Shown here piece by piece: positions 2,456-16,828 of a DNA stretch of 64,000 bases. The notes beneath the pieces are model-generated. The model was not told the DNA's origin and did not search any database. It saw nothing but the letters and a program-made list of their open reading frames with translations. The DNA is from Myxococcales bacterium (GTDB lineage: Bacteria > Myxococcota_A > Polyangia > Polyangiales > Houyiibacteriaceae). How positions within the stretch are numbered: the first letter of the stretch is position 1; each line of letters begins with the position of its first letter. The DNA is taken from positions 85,486 to 149,485 of the forward strand of contig JAOTXX010000001.1 in assembly GCA_029862185.1 (NCBI GenBank), written 5' to 3'. Position numbers and translations under genes: made by a program.

Positions 2456-3372
2456 CGGAGGATTTGGTCTTCGACGGTACCCTCGGACCCGAGTCCAAGG
2501 TCCACGTTCTGCGGGAAGCCGACGTGGCCTCCGCGATCAGTGACGATCCGCCGCAGCCCGGTCGCATTCTGGAGCCAAGGCCGCACCGTGTCGATCGGCA
2601 CAATCGGGTCCCGTTCGGTTGCGATGAACAAAGTCGGCGTTTCGATGTCTTCGAGGACGTGGCAGGCGCTGGTCCGCGCCCAGTAGTCCTCGGCACCTGC
2701 GAACCCGTGACGCGGCGCGATCACCCGTTCGTCCCACTGTTCGATCGTGTCGATGCGGTTGGCTTCCGCCATCGAGAGAGGCACTTCACGACGCTCTGCG
2801 ACGTTGCGATAAATGTCCTTGAGGGCGTTCAAGATGTGTCGACGATAAAGCAGGCCGCGCGGCTGATCGATCGCACGCGCGCCTGGCTTCAAATCGATCG
2901 GCGAGCAGACCGCAGCAGCGGCTCGCACGCGTGGCTCGGGGCGGTCGGCGAGGTAGCGAAGCATCATGTTGCCGCCAAGCGAGTACGCGAGCAGCAGGAT
3001 CGTGTCATAGCCGGCGAGGGCGGGGCTTTGCAGCGCGGCATGGAGATCGTCGGTGAGGCCAGCATGGTAGTAGTCCGCGCCGCCGCGATCGGCGCCGCGA
3101 AGGTTGAGCCGAAGGCTGTCCAGCCCGGCGCGTGCTGCGGCAAGTGCGGCCCGGCGAGCGTAGTAGCTCGTCGCGCTGCCACCGAGCCCATGCACGATCA
3201 CCACGATGGTGTCCGATGCGCCGCTCCCGCTCAGCCGGCCGCTCAGCTCGAGCGTACCGACCGCGCCGTCGCTGAGACTCGTCTGCCAACGCTGCCAGTC
3301 CGGAGCCCTCGGCGGGAGCAGGCTATGGAGAAGAAATGGGCCTAGGGTCCAGAAGTGACCCCGCCAGCTCAT
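2434..3372 (-). CDS. YheT-type alpha/beta hydrolase
   Basis: A 312-residue alpha/beta hydrolase of the YheT/EMB8 group. The oxyanion-hole motif HGLGGS is near residue 60, the nucleophile elbow AYSLGGN near 130, the acid in TERDPIVP near 255, and the catalytic His in GGHVGF near 285. This is the complete Ser-Asp-His order of the family. YheT relatives act on esters or lipids, but the substrate is unknown. The ATG overlaps the stop of the upstream murein endopeptidase (ATGA), and its 3' end overlaps the NlpC/P60 gene by 22 bp, so the three are probably co-transcribed and translationally coupled. The family call is secure; the biochemical role is not. Confidence 0.88.
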   Translation of the reverse strand: MSWRGHFWTLGPFLLHSLLPPRAPDWQRWQTSLSDGAVGTLELSGRLSGSGASDTIVVIVHGLGGSATSYYARRAALAAARAGLDSLRLNLRGADRGGADYYHAGLTDDLHAALQSPALAGYDTILLLAYSLGGNMMLRYLADRPEPRVRAAAAVCSPIDLKPGARAIDQPRGLLYRRHILNALKDIYRNVAERREVPLSMAEANRIDTIEQWDERVIAPRHGFAGAEDYWARTSACHVLEDIETPTLFIATERDPIVPIDTVRPWLQNATGLRRIVTDRGGHVGFPQNVDLGLGSEGTVEDQILRWMLAPT

Positions 3373-4316
3373 GAATCATTGGGCTTGAGCGTGCTGACGG
3401 CCGGAGCCTGTGTAGCCCGTTGGTGCCACGAATAGAAAGGCGGGCGGTCTTTGCACATCGGGCGATCGTCGTCTGCGCAGTAAACACGGACGTGGAAGTG
3501 GCTCCGGTGTGGCGCACCGTGTCGGGGCTGCGTGATGACGCGTCGTGCGCGCATCAAGAGCTCGGGATTCGCGCGTTCCTTGATGGCCTGATTGAGCAGG
3601 CGACGCTTGATCGCATTCGACACGAAGATGTGCTGGACGTCGGTCGTCGGATGGCTGAGCAATGATTCGATTAGCGCCCAGTTTCTTGACGCGTCGAACT
3701 TGTAGAGGCTACCCCACTGCTTGCCCATAGCCTGATTGTTGAGCCGGACGAACACGTGCGCGTTCACCGGCGTCGAGCGCCTATCGAGCAGGTAGAATCC
3801 GATGTCGACATCGCGGCCACTCTGGTGCGAGACGTGCGGGCGGAATCGGCCACCACCGGGCCGCGAAAGATCACCGACCGTGAGCTCGGCGCGAGGGTAT
3901 CGAAATGCAACTTCGTGCGCGGCGCGTTCGATCAGTCGAATGAGCTCGCCGGTCGCATGGCGCGAGTCTTGCGAACCGACCTTGACCTTGAGGGCCCTAT
4001 CATCGTTGATCCGCATCCCGAATCTCAGCAGCCCGCGGTTAGGGTAGCCGACGGAAACACTGGGGTTCGGCTCGATGTCCGAAGGCGAAATGCTGCGAGG
4101 CATCCGCGCAATCTTTTCTAAGTCTGCGTCGGAAGGTTCCGCGTGCGACTCCGCATGTTGCGCTTCGCGAAGAACCGGGTTGCCGGTCATCGGGAGCTCA
4201 GCGGATGCAGACGTACCGAATGAGCCCGACAGCCACACCAGAGATGTCGCGATCAGCGCACAGATCCATGGCACTAGCCTGGATTGCGTTCCCCTCTGTG
4301 AATCCTGGTTCCCCAT
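3369..4316 (-). CDS. M74 (MepA-type) penicillin-insensitive murein endopeptidase
   Basis: A 315-residue protein with an N-terminal hydrophobic segment (about residues 15-38) ending in an ASA-like cleavage site, so it is exported. The M74/MepA metal-binding signature is present: HQSGRDVDIGF (His164, Asp169, Asp171) and HRSHFHVRV (His270, His273, His275). MepA enzymes are zinc-dependent and cut cross-links between D-Ala and meso-diaminopimelate in peptidoglycan. Length fits MepA with an extended N-terminus. It is the first gene of an overlapping trio with the hydrolase and the NlpC/P60 lipoprotein, so the operon looks devoted to wall turnover. A second M74 protein lies at 15183-16214. The 147-bp upstream gap contains a small palindrome. 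Confidence 0.88.
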   Translation of the reverse strand: MGNQDSQRGTQSRLVPWICALIATSLVWLSGSFGTSASAELPMTGNPVLREAQHAESHAEPSDADLEKIARMPRSISPSDIEPNPSVSVGYPNRGLLRFGMRINDDRALKVKVGSQDSRHATGELIRLIERAAHEVAFRYPRAELTVGDLSRPGGGRFRPHVSHQSGRDVDIGFYLLDRRSTPVNAHVFVRLNNQAMGKQWGSLYKFDASRNWALIESLLSHPTTDVQHIFVSNAIKRRLLNQAIKERANPELLMRARRVITQPRHGAPHRSHFHVRVYCADDDRPMCKDRPPFYSWHQRATQAPAVSTLKPNDS

Positions 4317-4463: not shown

Positions 4464-5015
4464 TCAACCGAGTGCAGGCTGCTCCTGTGCGGCTTTTTCG
4501 AAGGGAATGTCGCCCGGAGGGGGGATTTTCGCGCCCATGAGATAGCGCAGAAAGAGCCACCAAATGACGCCGAGGCCCCACATCAGGCCGAGCACGACGC
4601 CCCCGTCGACGATCCCACGCCAGGGCTGCGGCAGCGAACGTACCCACCAGATCAGCAGAACGATCGCCACGACGAACACCCAGCTCACGGTCATCTGGCG
4701 CCGGGTCGAGTGAAAAAGGCTCATGCAAAAGGGAAGCGCGAGAATGACCCAGAGCGGCCGGGGATTCTGCCCAAGGTAGATTGCCCTGGCCACGACCCGC
4801 GGCGAGAACCGCAACTGGAAGCCACGGTAGCCCTCGAGGTAGGCATTCGCGGCGAGCCAGGCGATGTAGATGCCCTTTTGACCGTTCGTCATCAGGTCCT
4901 GAGTCCACGGTTCGAGCGCAAGCGGCGCGAGTCGCCATATCGCCCTTCCGAGCAGTAGCGACACCCAGGCGATGCCCCAGGCGGCCAATAGTTTTTCCAC
5001 CCACGGGCGCATCGT
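4464..5015 (-). CDS. Hypothetical four-helix membrane protein
   Basis: A 183-residue protein read from ATG 5015; the frame extends to a TTG at 5060, which has no better ribosome-binding site. Four hydrophobic stretches are visible: near the N-terminus (AWVSLLLGRAIW), mid-protein (VILALPFCMSLF), SWVFVVAIVLLIWWV, and GLMWGLGVIWWLFLRYLMG. The C-terminus is short and polar. No domain was recognised. It is divergent from the polysaccharide co-polymerase gene and lies upstream of the wall-hydrolase operon, so an envelope role is plausible but unproven. It could be a small accessory subunit; nothing in the sequence decides this. Confidence 0.6.
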   Translation of the reverse strand, partial: TMRPWVEKLLAAWGIAWVSLLLGRAIWRLAPLALEPWTQDLMTNGQKGIYIAWLAANAYLEGYRGFQLRFSPRVVARAIYLGQNPRPLWVILALPFCMSLFHSTRRQMTVSWVFVVAIVLLIWWVRSLPQPWRGIVDGGVVLGLMWGLGVIWWLFLRYLMGAKIPPPGDIPFEKAAQEQPALG

Positions 5016-5103
5016 CGGCCGCGACGTTAGCAGCCTCACATGGCTTGTCGACTTGCCCAAAGGGCGCCTCGACGGTCATGCTCACGGAAGCAGAGGACGC
5101 AAC

Positions 5104-7653
5104 TTGGACGACGCATCGTACGACTTTGGCGAAGAGGACGCGTCGGCTGAAAAGCCACGGCGTCCCGGCTTGCCGGTCGAGCCGCGGCGCTTGCTGTGGA
5201 TTGTTCGAGACCATCGCAAGCGCTTGCTCAAGGCGTTTCTCGTCGCGTCGGTATTCGCGCTCCTCGGATTATTCTTCGTGCCGCAAACCTTCGAGTCTTC
5301 GGCACTGCTCTTGTACGAAGGGACCCCGGAGCTGGAACGGGAGGGTGCGAGGCCCACGCCGGACGCTTTTATCGACGCTGCGATGGCGCCGAGCCGTCTT
5401 CGAGAGATGCGCGATCGACTGAGCTGGGACGTGTCGCTCGAGGACCTCGAGAGCCAGATCGAAGTATCGCAAGAAACCGACGCAGCGATGCGGATCGTCG
5501 GACGAGACAGGAGCGCTGAACGGGCGCATACGCTGACCCAAGTCGTGCTCGATGTGTTTCTTGCACGGCAGGCCAGCTTCAACCGTGCGCGGCTCGAGCG
5601 TCTCACCGCGGAGAACGAGCAGGCACTAGAACATGCCAAAAAGAAGCGGGACGAAGCCGTCGCGGCCTATCAGGTATTTCGAGAAGAGAGCGGCAAGCCC
5701 GACGTGATTCAAGAGAAAGAACAGCTCTTGGCACGCGCCGATCTTCTTCGCACCCAAGCGGAGGCGGCGTCGGTGGAGGTGGTGGCGCAGCAGGCCCGCA
5801 TCGGGGAGCTCGAAAAGGCGCAGACGGAGTTGCCGCGTCAAATGGTCGCGAGTTCGAAGAAAGGCTCACCCGTCGACTCGCCTCTTGCGCAGGCGCGGTC
5901 CGAGCTTGCTTCCGCTCGCGCTTCGTTGAGCGAGCAACATCCGAGGGTGCAGGCGCTCAAACAACGGGTTGCAAGCCTCCAAGCACAAAGGAAGGGTCAG
6001 AAGGCGGAGCTCAGCGAGCAGACGATGGCCGTCAATCCGGCCCGGTCCGCGGTCGATCAGCAGCTTGCGACGGCGCGCGCTGCGCTGGCGGGGGCCAAGG
6101 AGCGGGAATCTGCCCTCCTGGTGCTGTTGAAGACGATCAGAACGGAAATGGAATCGCTTTCCCCCGACGAAGGGGAGGCTCGACAACTGGTCGGAGCGGT
6201 GGAAGCAGCCGACGAGCGCTTCCAGCAACTCGCCAAACGGGCTGCGGAGCTTCGAGATGCATCGCTCGGGCCGATGACCGGCTTTCGCGTCTTGTCGTCC
6301 CCGATGTTGCCGGAGGAGTCGCATCGCTCCCCCGCGCATGCGTTGATGCTCGTGATGCTGCCGATCCTGACGGCGCTGATCTTCGCGGTCGTGATTATCG
6401 TGCGAAGGTTGCGAACCCTCACCGTCGAAGCCCCGCGCGAGGTTGCATGGTGGGGCAACGGCCCTGTGCTCGGCACCAGCGTGTGGCCGCGTGACCCGAG
6501 CGCGCTCGAAATCTTCGTCGACGAGCTCGAGGACTACGGAATGTACGGGGCGGGGCGAACCCTCGTCGTACCTGCCACCGAGGCCGAGCGCGAGATCGCG
6601 TGTTCGTTTGCGATGCGCCTCGCCGATGCGCCTTGGTTGGCGGCTGCGATTCTCGATGTTGGGGACAGGGCAGGCACAGCCTCGAACGCGGCTCCGGTCA
6701 TCACGCCGGCACCATCGGTACGGCCTTCCACACCGCCGTCGCGTCCGCGTCGGCTCTCCTCGCAGGCGAGCGTGTCGGTGCCCCCGGGAACCAGGCCGTC
6801 CGCGCGCCCGACGATTCAAGGTTTCGTGCCACCGAGTGGGGGCTCGCCGTCGGCGCCGCCGGTCGTCACGCCCCCTCCGAAGGCCGAGGCGGGTAAGGCC
6901 TACTCCTCGAGACCGCCGCGCAAAAAGACGATGATCGGCTTGCCCGCGGTGGAGTCGTCTCGCCCGCCCCCCATCTCCTCGACGCCCCCCTCCGCGGCGA
7001 CGGTGTCTGCGATCGGTTCGTCCGAGCCCCCCAGGCCATCCAAGGAGCCCGAGCCGTTTCGGAGGAAGCGCGGGGCGCGAGCGACGGTGCGCATGATGGT
7101 GCCCGATCCACATCCGGACCTGCCCGCGCGTGAGTCTGCGGCTGGTCCGGCTCGTGACCCAGGAGCCGAGGAGGACGCCTTCCTGCTCACTCGGCCTGTA
7201 CCCGTGGCGACCGGACCTAGCACGTCGCGCGCTGGGCGCGGGGTGCACGTGAGAACCGAAACGCCGTATGCAGGCGCCTCCAACGCCGTCATGAGTGCCG
7301 CGGTCAGGCTGCTCGGGAACGAGGAGGAGGAGCTCCGCAGCCTTCGGCCATCCGATCCACCGGATCGATCCGAGTCGCCGGGTCCTGGGTCCGTGACGGG
7401 TGTCGCGCTGGCCTGGAATGGCCCGTTGAGCGGCCCGGTGTTGCGCCGCGCTGCGCGGCTCGCGCACCGAGTGATGGTGGTGGTGTCTTCAGGCATCAGC
7501 GTGATCGAGCTGGCGCGCATCCAGACGCGTCTGGGGCGTACCAAAGCCGTCGGCTACGTGCTCGTCAACCTGGGCGATGCCTATGTGGACCTTCAGGATC
7601 GCGCGGGGCCCGTCGAAGAGTTCTGGGAGAGCGCGAGCGAGGCAGAGCGCTAG
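5104..7653 (+). CDS. Wzz-like polysaccharide co-polymerase with degenerate tyrosine-kinase domain
   Basis: The start chosen is TTG 5104, with AGAGGA 7 bp upstream; the frame is open back to 4972 but that would overlap the divergent gene. The protein has 849 residues. A cytoplasmic N-tail is followed by TM1 (about 40-59), a long periplasmic coiled coil rich in Glu, Ala and Gln, and TM2 (about 413-434), which is Wzz/PCP architecture. The cytoplasmic C-terminus resembles a CpsD/Wzc BY-kinase but is decayed: residues 454-522 align in outline (GPVLGTSVWP, then AAAILDVGDR) with no Walker A GxxGxGK[ST], and 766-830 (RVMVVVSS, VGYVLVNLGD) correspond to the kinase end without a DTPP Walker B. About 185 Pro/Ser-rich residues separate the halves. 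It probably controls chain length or export of a surface polysaccharide. No Wzx/Wzy genes are adjacent. Confidence 0.75.
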   Translation: MDDASYDFGEEDASAEKPRRPGLPVEPRRLLWIVRDHRKRLLKAFLVASVFALLGLFFVPQTFESSALLLYEGTPELEREGARPTPDAFIDAAMAPSRLREMRDRLSWDVSLEDLESQIEVSQETDAAMRIVGRDRSAERAHTLTQVVLDVFLARQASFNRARLERLTAENEQALEHAKKKRDEAVAAYQVFREESGKPDVIQEKEQLLARADLLRTQAEAASVEVVAQQARIGELEKAQTELPRQMVASSKKGSPVDSPLAQARSELASARASLSEQHPRVQALKQRVASLQAQRKGQKAELSEQTMAVNPARSAVDQQLATARAALAGAKERESALLVLLKTIRTEMESLSPDEGEARQLVGAVEAADERFQQLAKRAAELRDASLGPMTGFRVLSSPMLPEESHRSPAHALMLVMLPILTALIFAVVIIVRRLRTLTVEAPREVAWWGNGPVLGTSVWPRDPSALEIFVDELEDYGMYGAGRTLVVPATEAEREIACSFAMRLADAPWLAAAILDVGDRAGTASNAAPVITPAPSVRPSTPPSRPRRLSSQASVSVPPGTRPSARPTIQGFVPPSGGSPSAPPVVTPPPKAEAGKAYSSRPPRKKTMIGLPAVESSRPPPISSTPPSAATVSAIGSSEPPRPSKEPEPFRRKRGARATVRMMVPDPHPDLPARESAAGPARDPGAEEDAFLLTRPVPVATGPSTSRAGRGVHVRTETPYAGASNAVMSAAVRLLGNEEEELRSLRPSDPPDRSESPGPGSVTGVALAWNGPLSGPVLRRAARLAHRVMVVVSSGISVIELARIQTRLGRTKAVGYVLVNLGDAYVDLQDRAGPVEEFWESASEAER

Positions 7654-15182: not shown

Positions 15183-16214
15183 TCACCGACAATAGCGGCG
15201 GCCCGGGTGCGGTTGCTCGGCCCATTGCTTGCGGCGATCGAGCCAACGTTCGACTTCGGGATCCATCGGCCCTGCGGCCGCGCGGGCCTCCTCGTGCGTC
15301 ACGATCTTGGCATTGGCGCTTGGGCGTCTGGACGCGAGCGGGCGGGGTTGCACGCCGGCGCGCTCGAGCCGCTTTCGGTGCCACGGGTAGAGCGGAGCAG
15401 AATCGCGACAGCCCTCCACGATGTCGTCGGGAGCACAGAAGAAGCGGAAATGGAAGTGATCGTCGTGTGGATAGCTCGGCTGACAACTCATCGCCGCGAA
15501 GCGCATCACCGCGGTCGAGGGCTCGTCGTTTGAACGGGCGTACTCGAGAAGCAGCGTTCGGAGGTGCTCGGCGACGAAGATTTGCTGGAGCTGTGCCTCT
15601 TCGTCCTCGATGAGCGCCCGAAGAAAAAGCCAAGTCCGAGCCCTGTCGAACTGCAGGACGATGTCGTCGTTAGGGTCCGCCAGGTCTCGAAAATCCACCC
15701 CTACGCCGTCTGGGCCGAAGAACGCACCCACGCTCTCGATGGGCTCGCCGTCGGGGCCGCGCTGGTAGAAGAGCACATCGACGTCGCGGCCGCTCTGGTG
15801 TGAGCGATGATGGGGGATCGGTCCGCCGCGCTCGCGGCTGAGGTCGTTGATTGTGACCGGAAGCCCGCCGAGCTCTTGGTCGACCCGTGCGCCGGCGCGA
15901 ACCAAAGCCCGAACGACTTCCACGGTCCCGTAGCGAGCCGATGGATCGCGGCGCGGGTTGAAGCGCAAGCCGGGAGCCCTGAGGGGAAGCGGCACACCGC
16001 CCCGCAATGCGCCGTCGTTGGGGTTGCGGAGCGAAGCGGAGTCGCAGCAGCTCCAGTCCATCGCGGCGCCTTGGCGCGCTGGGTCGGTCCTCAGGGGAAC
16101 CGGCGTAGCGTCCTCGGTTTCGGTCTCCTGCGTCGGAATGGACCTCTGCCCGCTGGTGCAAGCGGTCACTGCCGCGGCTACGAGCGCAGCGGCAAAGACG
16201 TCGCGTCGCCCCAT
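15183..16214 (-). CDS. M74 (MepA-type) murein endopeptidase lipoprotein
   Basis: ATG 16214 gives 343 residues with a lipoprotein signal (lipobox VTAC, Cys19). The M74 signature is HQSGRDVDVLF (His139, Asp144, Asp146) plus HDDHFHFRFFC near residue 275. It is thus a second, lipid-anchored relative of the 3369-4316 protein, predicted to hydrolyse D-Ala-mDAP cross-links from the membrane. The C-terminus carries an additional basic tail. Its ATG shares one base with the stop of the upstream TetR gene (TGATG), so regulator and enzyme are translationally coupled, an unusual partner for a wall hydrolase. The frame runs upstream of 16214, but residues there are not signal-like. Confidence 0.86.
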   Translation of the reverse strand: MGRRDVFAAALVAAAVTACTSGQRSIPTQETETEDATPVPLRTDPARQGAAMDWSCCDSASLRNPNDGALRGGVPLPLRAPGLRFNPRRDPSARYGTVEVVRALVRAGARVDQELGGLPVTINDLSRERGGPIPHHRSHQSGRDVDVLFYQRGPDGEPIESVGAFFGPDGVGVDFRDLADPNDDIVLQFDRARTWLFLRALIEDEEAQLQQIFVAEHLRTLLLEYARSNDEPSTAVMRFAAMSCQPSYPHDDHFHFRFFCAPDDIVEGCRDSAPLYPWHRKRLERAGVQPRPLASRRPSANAKIVTHEEARAAAGPMDPEVERWLDRRKQWAEQPHPGRRYCR

Positions 16215-16828
16215 CACGGCTCGGTGGGATTGAGAATGGCGGCAAATACGGCGCCTGCCATCTGGACGAGAAGCTCCAAAAACACATCCAGATCGAGCTC
16301 TTGGCGTTCTGCCCAGTCGAGGCTCGCCGCTTCGAGAAAGCCCAGCCATCCCCGGAGACGCAGCCTGGTCGACGGGGCTTTCGGGTCCGCGCCGAAGCGG
16401 GACAAACGCGAACCCATTTTATCCAGAACAGCCTGTCGGGTCTCCTCGATGATCTGGGCGACCTCCGTGTCGGTTCCAATGCCTCCGCGAAGGAGAAAGG
16501 AATACGAGATGCGCCGGCGCGAGACGTACACAAGGAAGGCTCGAATCCTGGCGCGAATGCCCTCGGGGTCGAGCTCATGTCCCACGAGCTGCTGATCGAC
16601 GTCGGTCTCTTCCAAGAGCTCGCGCGCCGCTTCACGGACCGCCGCCACGTAGAAGGCCCGTTTGCTCGGAAAGTAATGGTAGAGAAGGCCTTTGGAAACG
16701 CCAGCCCTTTTAGCGATCTCGTCGATGGAGAGCTCGTCGTAGGTCTGATTCCCGAAAAGCTCGAGCCCGAGCTCCAGCAGTTGCTGTCGGCGGACGTCGA
16801 CTTGGAGCCGTGTGCGTGCGGGCTGCAT
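16214..16828 (-). CDS. TetR/AcrR-family transcriptional regulator
   Basis: ATG 16828 gives 204 residues. The N-terminal helix-turn-helix (about residues 33-52: DELSIDEIAKRAGVSKGLLYHYF, split as DELSIDEIAKRAG and VSKGLLYHYFPSK) is the classic TetR DNA-binding domain. The remaining helices form the ligand-binding/dimer domain, with no recognisable ligand pocket. The gene is divergent from the NifU-like gene and overlaps the M74 lipoprotein start, so it likely regulates itself, the endopeptidase and perhaps the divergent gene. A 19-bp imperfect-spacer inverted repeat at 16868-16886 is a candidate operator. The effector is unknown. Confidence 0.9.
   Translation of the reverse strand: MQPARTRLQVDVRRQQLLELGLELFGNQTYDELSIDEIAKRAGVSKGLLYHYFPSKRAFYVAAVREAARELLEETDVDQQLVGHELDPEGIRARIRAFLVYVSRRRISYSFLLRGGIGTDTEVAQIIEETRQAVLDKMGSRLSRFGADPKAPSTRLRLRGWLGFLEAASLDWAERQELDLDVFLELLVQMAGAVFAAILNPTEP

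Follow-up and report, generated by a model that had tools for sequence, protein, structure and literature searches.

A probable PCP-2-type polysaccharide co-polymerase with a catalytically degenerate BY-kinase-like domain and a motif-bearing linker

The window analyzed here, a stretch of 64,000 nucleotides, carries on its forward strand (5104..7653) an open reading frame for a protein of 849 aa that is most likely a polysaccharide co-polymerase (PCP) working without kinase activity, as judged from comparison with related sequences. The protein consists of a PCP half (residues 1-440) and a cytoplasmic half with a degenerate BY-kinase-like appearance. We consider it probable, with some room for doubt, that it represents a PCP-2-type co-polymerase whose cytoplasmic BY-kinase (BYK) domain is no longer catalytic and has been retained for a structural role.

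Translation of the window gives a frame that is open from a TTG codon at 5104 through 849 codons to the stop at 7651-7653. A Shine-Dalgarno-like AGAGGA (5092-5097) lies six bases upstream of this TTG (5104-5106; both elements in 5092..5106, forward strand). An ATG is present further upstream at 4972, but the TTG is favored over it because in one ortholog (L004) the frame is closed by a stop codon five codons ahead of that TTG; a TTG start is thus plausible for this gene. The frame is kept in four orthologs (L003-L006) with 66-86% identity, all from public metagenome-assembled genomes, three of which are labeled as Polyangiaceae, Deltaproteobacteria or Myxococcales, with the fourth labeled simply as ‘uncultured bacterium.’

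The N-terminal half had been predicted to have the complete Wzz/PCP layout, and this is borne out. The NCBIfam chain-length determinant model TIGR03007 matches residues 112-447 (E 1.1e-20, below the curated cut-off of the model) and is matched by all 51 aligned members of the family, while the window protein has no significant match to the Pfam Wzz model alone (E 0.24). A profile made from the 51 members finds the solved structures of Wzc (E 1.4e-16) and PslE (E 2e-15). The NCBIfam Wzc model is matched by 11 of the 51 full-length members but not by their C-terminal halves alone, and these matches are therefore due to the PCP part. The first transmembrane helix lies at about residues 40-59 (5221..5280, forward strand), where the sequence is hydrophobic by eye and a low-confidence structural model has a helix at 38-57. 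It is followed by the periplasmic Wzz/PCP domain with its long coiled-coil (about residues 60-405; 5281..6318, forward strand), to which the TIGR03007 match and the profile matches to Wzc and PslE point. Long helices were modeled in this domain by AlphaFold2, with pLDDT values of about 52-78 in residues 161-390 only of a model of otherwise low confidence. The second transmembrane helix (TM2; about residues 410-435; 6331..6408, forward strand) was likewise read by eye, is a helix in both models and aligns with TM2 of BYKs. The protein thus shows the layout expected of PCP-2 proteins, in which a periplasmic domain of Wzz type, rich in long helices, is bounded by two transmembrane helices, here recognized by eye.

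The kinase motifs are named here by their usual consensus designations. The cytoplasmic half starts with a putative N-terminal pseudokinase half (residues 444-525; 6433..6678, forward strand), in which the Walker A and A' positions are lost, and ends with a putative C-terminal pseudokinase half (residues 764-842; 7393..7629, forward strand), which has lost Walker B and has no Tyr-rich tail; both were delimited from family alignments and hhalign. The pattern GK[ST] is absent from the kinase-like region of all 51 aligned members, the window protein included (a GKS does occur in two of the 51, within the PCP half), and D[TS]PP was found nowhere in any of them. The state of Walker A' was judged by eye on the alignments. 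In residues 514-522 of the window protein (AAILDVGDR) a likeness to the Walker A' strand persists, with one Asp retained; this Asp is gone in most members with a short linker, although L038 and L055 retain LIDV. All 51 members have no Tyr or a single one in their last 25 residues (Y827 in the window protein). Outside the linker, positions E446, W450, P454 and W461 on the N-side and W771, R781, R785, V792, V794, G811, R833 and G835 on the C-side are invariant or nearly so. The original prediction that Walker A, A' and B are missing from the C-terminal half therefore stands, apart from the remaining A'-like strand with its one Asp, and the search for intact Walker motifs in orthologs found none among the 51 aligned members. 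Since all 51 lack GK[ST] in the kinase-like region, the catalytic motifs are missing from the family as a whole across the order, and damage to a single gene is not the cause.

The family itself is widespread in the order. A protein search of the genomes of 19 relatives gave matches in 12, and an alignment search of 115 genomes of the order, in which at most eight candidates were scored per genome, gave matches in 61. Fifty of the 115 match at E<=1e-40, a count that rests on the whole-protein model, and 11 of the 61 are weak, with best E-values from 9.7e-4 to 1.8e-8 over short PCP stretches. Of 235 genomes searched across the phylum with a C-terminal profile, 20 gave matches; 16 matches are strong, and all 16 fall in the order of the window. 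Viral contigs were scanned and no relatives were found in them. The window's own assembly (169 contigs) has one copy only, and the absence of a second member is provisional. For the alignment, 51 of 55 open reading frames of the order (the window protein included, each with at least 60 bits) were kept; L025, L050 and L051, which are cut by contig ends, and L057 were dropped, while L067 was kept despite its cut N-terminus. In L057 (genome G090) the PCP frame of the family continues through a run of undetermined bases (N) into an unrelated helicase-like sequence, which is probably an assembly join.

Does the cytoplasmic half descend from a kinase? Instead, the kinase could have been replaced by an alpha/beta scaffold specific to the lineage and similar to it in strand order only, an explanation to which we give a minor share of probability. 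In its favor, the C-terminal half has no kinase match in sequence searches of Pfam, NCBIfam and PDB, and ordinary BYKs give a weak signal. The same searches matched no other family. The BYK profile was built from nine of 12 BYK-containing proteins, after setting aside L013 and L017, which gave no hit to the Walker A pattern used, and L001, which is truncated by the end of its locus; another sequence, L018, did not enter the profile either. When the joined halves from five close orthologs were aligned with the nine BYKs by hhalign, no signal was obtained and shuffles scored as well. With the deep family, TM2 and the first strand align to BYKs (hhalign, E 2e-5); such a C-terminus of TM2 plus strand is, according to PMC12004946, also found in a PCP without a kinase domain.

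Against a scaffold of other origin stand two bridge proteins from another class of the phylum, L125 (1-2334) and L126 (1066-3180), which are fused to a PCP and give weak matches to the family profile (E 3e-6 and 5e-6). Their domain is clearly BYK-like, with phmmer E-values down to 2e-15 against the nine BYKs and an hhalign E-value of 3e-19 in one comparison, and the positions of Walker A, A' and B are changed in both. A third PCP/BY-kinase-like fusion, L127 (790-2832), also from outside the window's class, keeps A' and B by eye and is missing the Walker A lysine. The gene after L125 encodes a WecG-type glycosyltransferase. The joined halves align with the bridges plus BYKs in a colinear, in-register manner (hhalign, probability 95%, E 4e-8, TM2 included). 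When TM2 is left out, the score of the C half is 25.9-30.5 if the bridges are included and 20.2 against BYKs alone (shuffle maximum 14.4); in the control of 40 column shuffles, the best values for the C half were 14.3-17.7. The N half without TM2 reaches 22.4 against the alignment of the three bridges (shuffle maximum 14.3), is at noise against BYKs and so matches the bridge alignment only, and its strand equivalent to Walker A is near noise when taken alone. In a test against 26 single proteins (the nine BYKs, the three bridges and 14 unrelated controls from the window), L126 and L125 rank first, and the unrelated controls, like the shuffles described above, score far below them. For the C half, two of the nine single BYKs come next after the bridges and above all 14 controls; for the joined halves none of the nine does, and the GTPase MeaB ties with the best BYK. 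Bridge L127 alone is at noise in this test.

Kinase descent of the cytoplasmic half is thus likely at the level of sequence profiles, mainly through the bridges L125 and L126. The original prediction of a dead BY-kinase fused to a PCP is supported for the fusion and for the loss of motifs, and its kinase descent is visible between profiles and weak against single BYKs. The three bridges seem to be stages of kinase decay, which would have proceeded from loss of the Walker A lysine (L127) over change of all motifs (L125 and L126) to loss of the middle of the domain (window family). Structure prediction, intended to see whether the two halves dock, gave two models that are unusable for this purpose: AlphaFold2 run with five close sequences had a mean pLDDT of 42 for the full protein and 35 for residues 403-849. 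In the C half, as modeled at this low confidence, strands and helices alternate.

Between the two halves lies a Pro/Ser-rich linker (residues 526-755; 6679..7368, forward strand), delimited by composition and by comparison of members. It comprises about 230 residues, 20% of which are Pro and 13% Ser, and it occupies the place of the stretch that separates Walker A' from Walker B in normal BY-kinases. A Pro/Ser-rich linker had been predicted correctly, but with a length of about 185 residues and as an insertion, whereas it is longer and in part replaces the A'-to-B segment. In the 51 members, the stretch between the halves (equivalents of residues 528-755) is 7-96 residues long in 39 and 155-230 residues long in 12, the window protein included. 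The long-linker group consists of nine members from the window's genus (the window protein included) together with L058, L059 and L076. In a tree built without the linker, this group joins L088, which has 96 residues, with a support of 85/71 that is not strong.

Four motifs stand out in the linker of the nine genus members. Motif 1, SSRPPRKKTMIGLPAV (residues 601-616; 6904..6951, forward strand), has a mean conservation of 0.92 and is seen in the genus only. Motif 2, EPFRRKRGARATVRMMVP (residues 650-667; 7051..7104, forward strand), was found by its conservation in the genus, and its core RATV[RQ] is present in eight of the nine genus members (RATIR in L048) as well as in L058, L059 and L076. 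Motif 3, AFLLTRPVPV (residues 692-701; 7177..7206, forward strand), is also conserved and seen in the genus only. Motif 4, ASNAVMSAAVRLLG (residues 725-738; 7276..7317, forward strand), is conserved in the genus and may form an amphipathic helix; the helix pattern is kept in all nine genus members and in L058 and L059, with looser counterparts by eye in L076 and L088. The four stretches are conserved at 0.86-0.94 compared to 0.58 for the rest of the linker in the nine genus members; as they were chosen because they are conserved, shuffles of the linker columns served as control. For window lengths of 10 to 18 residues, only 1 to 4 of 2000 such shuffles were as good as the best window observed, and 20 windows of 10 residues at >=0.9 were observed, compared to at most 5 in 1000 shuffles. 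Alignment of orthologs revealed conservation in the form of four motifs within the genus, two of which recur beyond it, in a long linker confined to 12 of the 51 members. Because it carries conserved short motifs, the long linker appears to be more than a spacer.

The gene has a divergently oriented membrane protein gene and an M74 peptidase gene on one side; mutA lies on the other, together with mutB and meaB, which were recognized by eye. The first possible start of the mutA frame after the PCP gene is 12 bases past the stop codon and the likely start at about 84. The same gene order is seen by eye in L003-L006, as far as these extend, and in L143. The membrane protein (4464-5060, reverse strand) is about 190 aa long and has no Pfam match; a protein that looks similar by eye is encoded in locus L140 (17415-18038), at a distance of about 5 kb from the PCP gene. 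The window contains two homologs of M74 (MepA-like) murein endopeptidases, 3369-4316 and 15183-16349 (-), about 12 kb apart.

The window gene does not lie in a polysaccharide cluster, and genes for glycan synthesis or export are not among its neighbors; the other long-linker genes are likewise outside such clusters in the neighborhoods read. The long-linker copy may conceivably have left polysaccharide synthesis and scaffold another process, e.g., propionyl-CoA metabolism or a neighboring membrane protein, but we regard this as quite improbable. It would fit with mutA close behind the gene, with the Pfam-identified mutA and meaB flanking a long-linker gene in another genus (L140), with sucD, ndk (by eye), terC and DUF6929 near the long version in another family (L139), and with the fact that no PF02397 protein was found in the 169 contigs of the window's assembly, an absence that is provisional. 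Conserved gene order is, however, possible without shared function, the PCP domain is intact, and the same assembly has one OPX export protein, whose gene is a few kb at most from a polysaccharide gene with a PF02719 match. An FHA-domain reading of a gene near the OPX gene was dropped, as Pfam sees only TonB_C. The L088 gene (locus L144, parts of which were read by eye) is likewise near sucD, ndk, terC and DUF6929. The neighbor sets with methylmalonyl-CoA mutase and with succinyl-CoA ligase both touch succinyl-CoA metabolism, perhaps by chance.

The family as such is tied to polysaccharide synthesis because in two genomes of the window's genus, G003 (L040, 6274-9807) and G012 (L031), a short-linker paralog follows directly downstream of a PF02397 sugar phosphotransferase gene. 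In a third genome (G001, L039), no sugar phosphotransferase gene was recognized by eye within the 13 kb read around the short paralog. For the window protein itself, whose gene lies outside a polysaccharide cluster and whose assembly has no PF02397 protein, a role in a Wzx/Wzy pathway is putative.

An active kinase was also searched for in the genome, and one was found: contig C143 encodes a single Wzc-like BY-kinase with AAA_31, Wzz and GNVR matches and with Walker motifs by eye. The window protein might work together with this kinase, in mixed rings or through phosphorylation of its scattered Tyr residues, a partnership that its presence in the assembly allows and that we nevertheless hold to be unlikely. 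The kinase is encoded on another contig and has a PCP half of its own, there are no more than six Tyr in residues 441-849 of the window protein, with Y827 as the only one in the last 25 residues, and the authors of the EcpK study argue (PMC12004946) against dependence on active BYKs in Myxococcus xanthus.

The most probable reading is the co-polymerase whose kinase domain is kept for structure. Such a protein would form a ring in the inner membrane that helps a Wzx/Wzy-type machine to polymerize and export a glycan. As has been proposed for EcpK and EpsV, direct contacts, and not cyclic Tyr phosphorylation, would let the dead domain hold or release neighboring subunits. In the long-linker lineage a disordered loop at the A'-to-B site could display short docking motifs for a cytoplasmic partner; in the original prediction the putative partner was a kinase or phosphatase. 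A bolder version, which is speculative, holds that control has moved from the C-terminal Tyr cluster to this loop, where motif segments that we take to be centered on Thr (RKKTMIG, RATVRMM and LLTRPV) and the helix-like motif might recruit a Ser/Thr-based or other cytoplasmic signaling partner, making up a kinase-free switch encoded outside glycan clusters. In either case, the motifs of the long linker are concrete candidates for control of a co-polymerase without tyrosine phosphorylation.

The window family shares with the BY-kinases Wzc, Etk and CapAB the PCP half, TM2 and, as far as profile alignment through the bridges indicates, the order of the cytoplasmic elements, but its members have lost the catalytic motifs and the Tyr-rich tail, and a low-complexity linker has taken the place of the A'-to-B segment. 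Among the closest known systems is EcpK (MXAN_7447) of M. xanthus, an experimentally tested BY pseudokinase which, as described in the 2025 paper PMC12004946, is a separate protein serving the PCP-2 EpsV. Walker motifs and a Tyr-rich tail are missing from the domain that serves the PCP-2 in both cases, a domain whose BY-kinase-like character is supported for the window protein at the profile level. EcpK is also without parts of the Wzc domain (helices 6-7 and strands 4-5), a missing middle region that, by description, resembles the linker site of the window protein. EcpK, however, has no N-terminal PCP, while the window protein is fused, as is its family, which spans much of one order (PMC12004946 for EcpK). 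HfsA and HfsB of Caulobacter crescentus are likewise described there as a PCP-2 working with a BY pseudokinase, but they are two separate proteins and act in holdfast synthesis. Fused PCP-2/BY pseudokinases are named in the same paper after Cuthbertson et al. (SMc01795, BCETI_6000729, Mlr8439 and VV1_2305) and, by description, have the overall fusion of the window protein. A search of the open literature, narrow with respect to linkers, found no paper on such a linker; for links of pThr or FHA to Myxococcus exopolysaccharide it gave one paper, on Bdellovibrio. Pseudokinase partners of PCPs, separate or fused, are thus already known; what is new is the order-wide family, its intermediates and the lineage with a motif-bearing linker.
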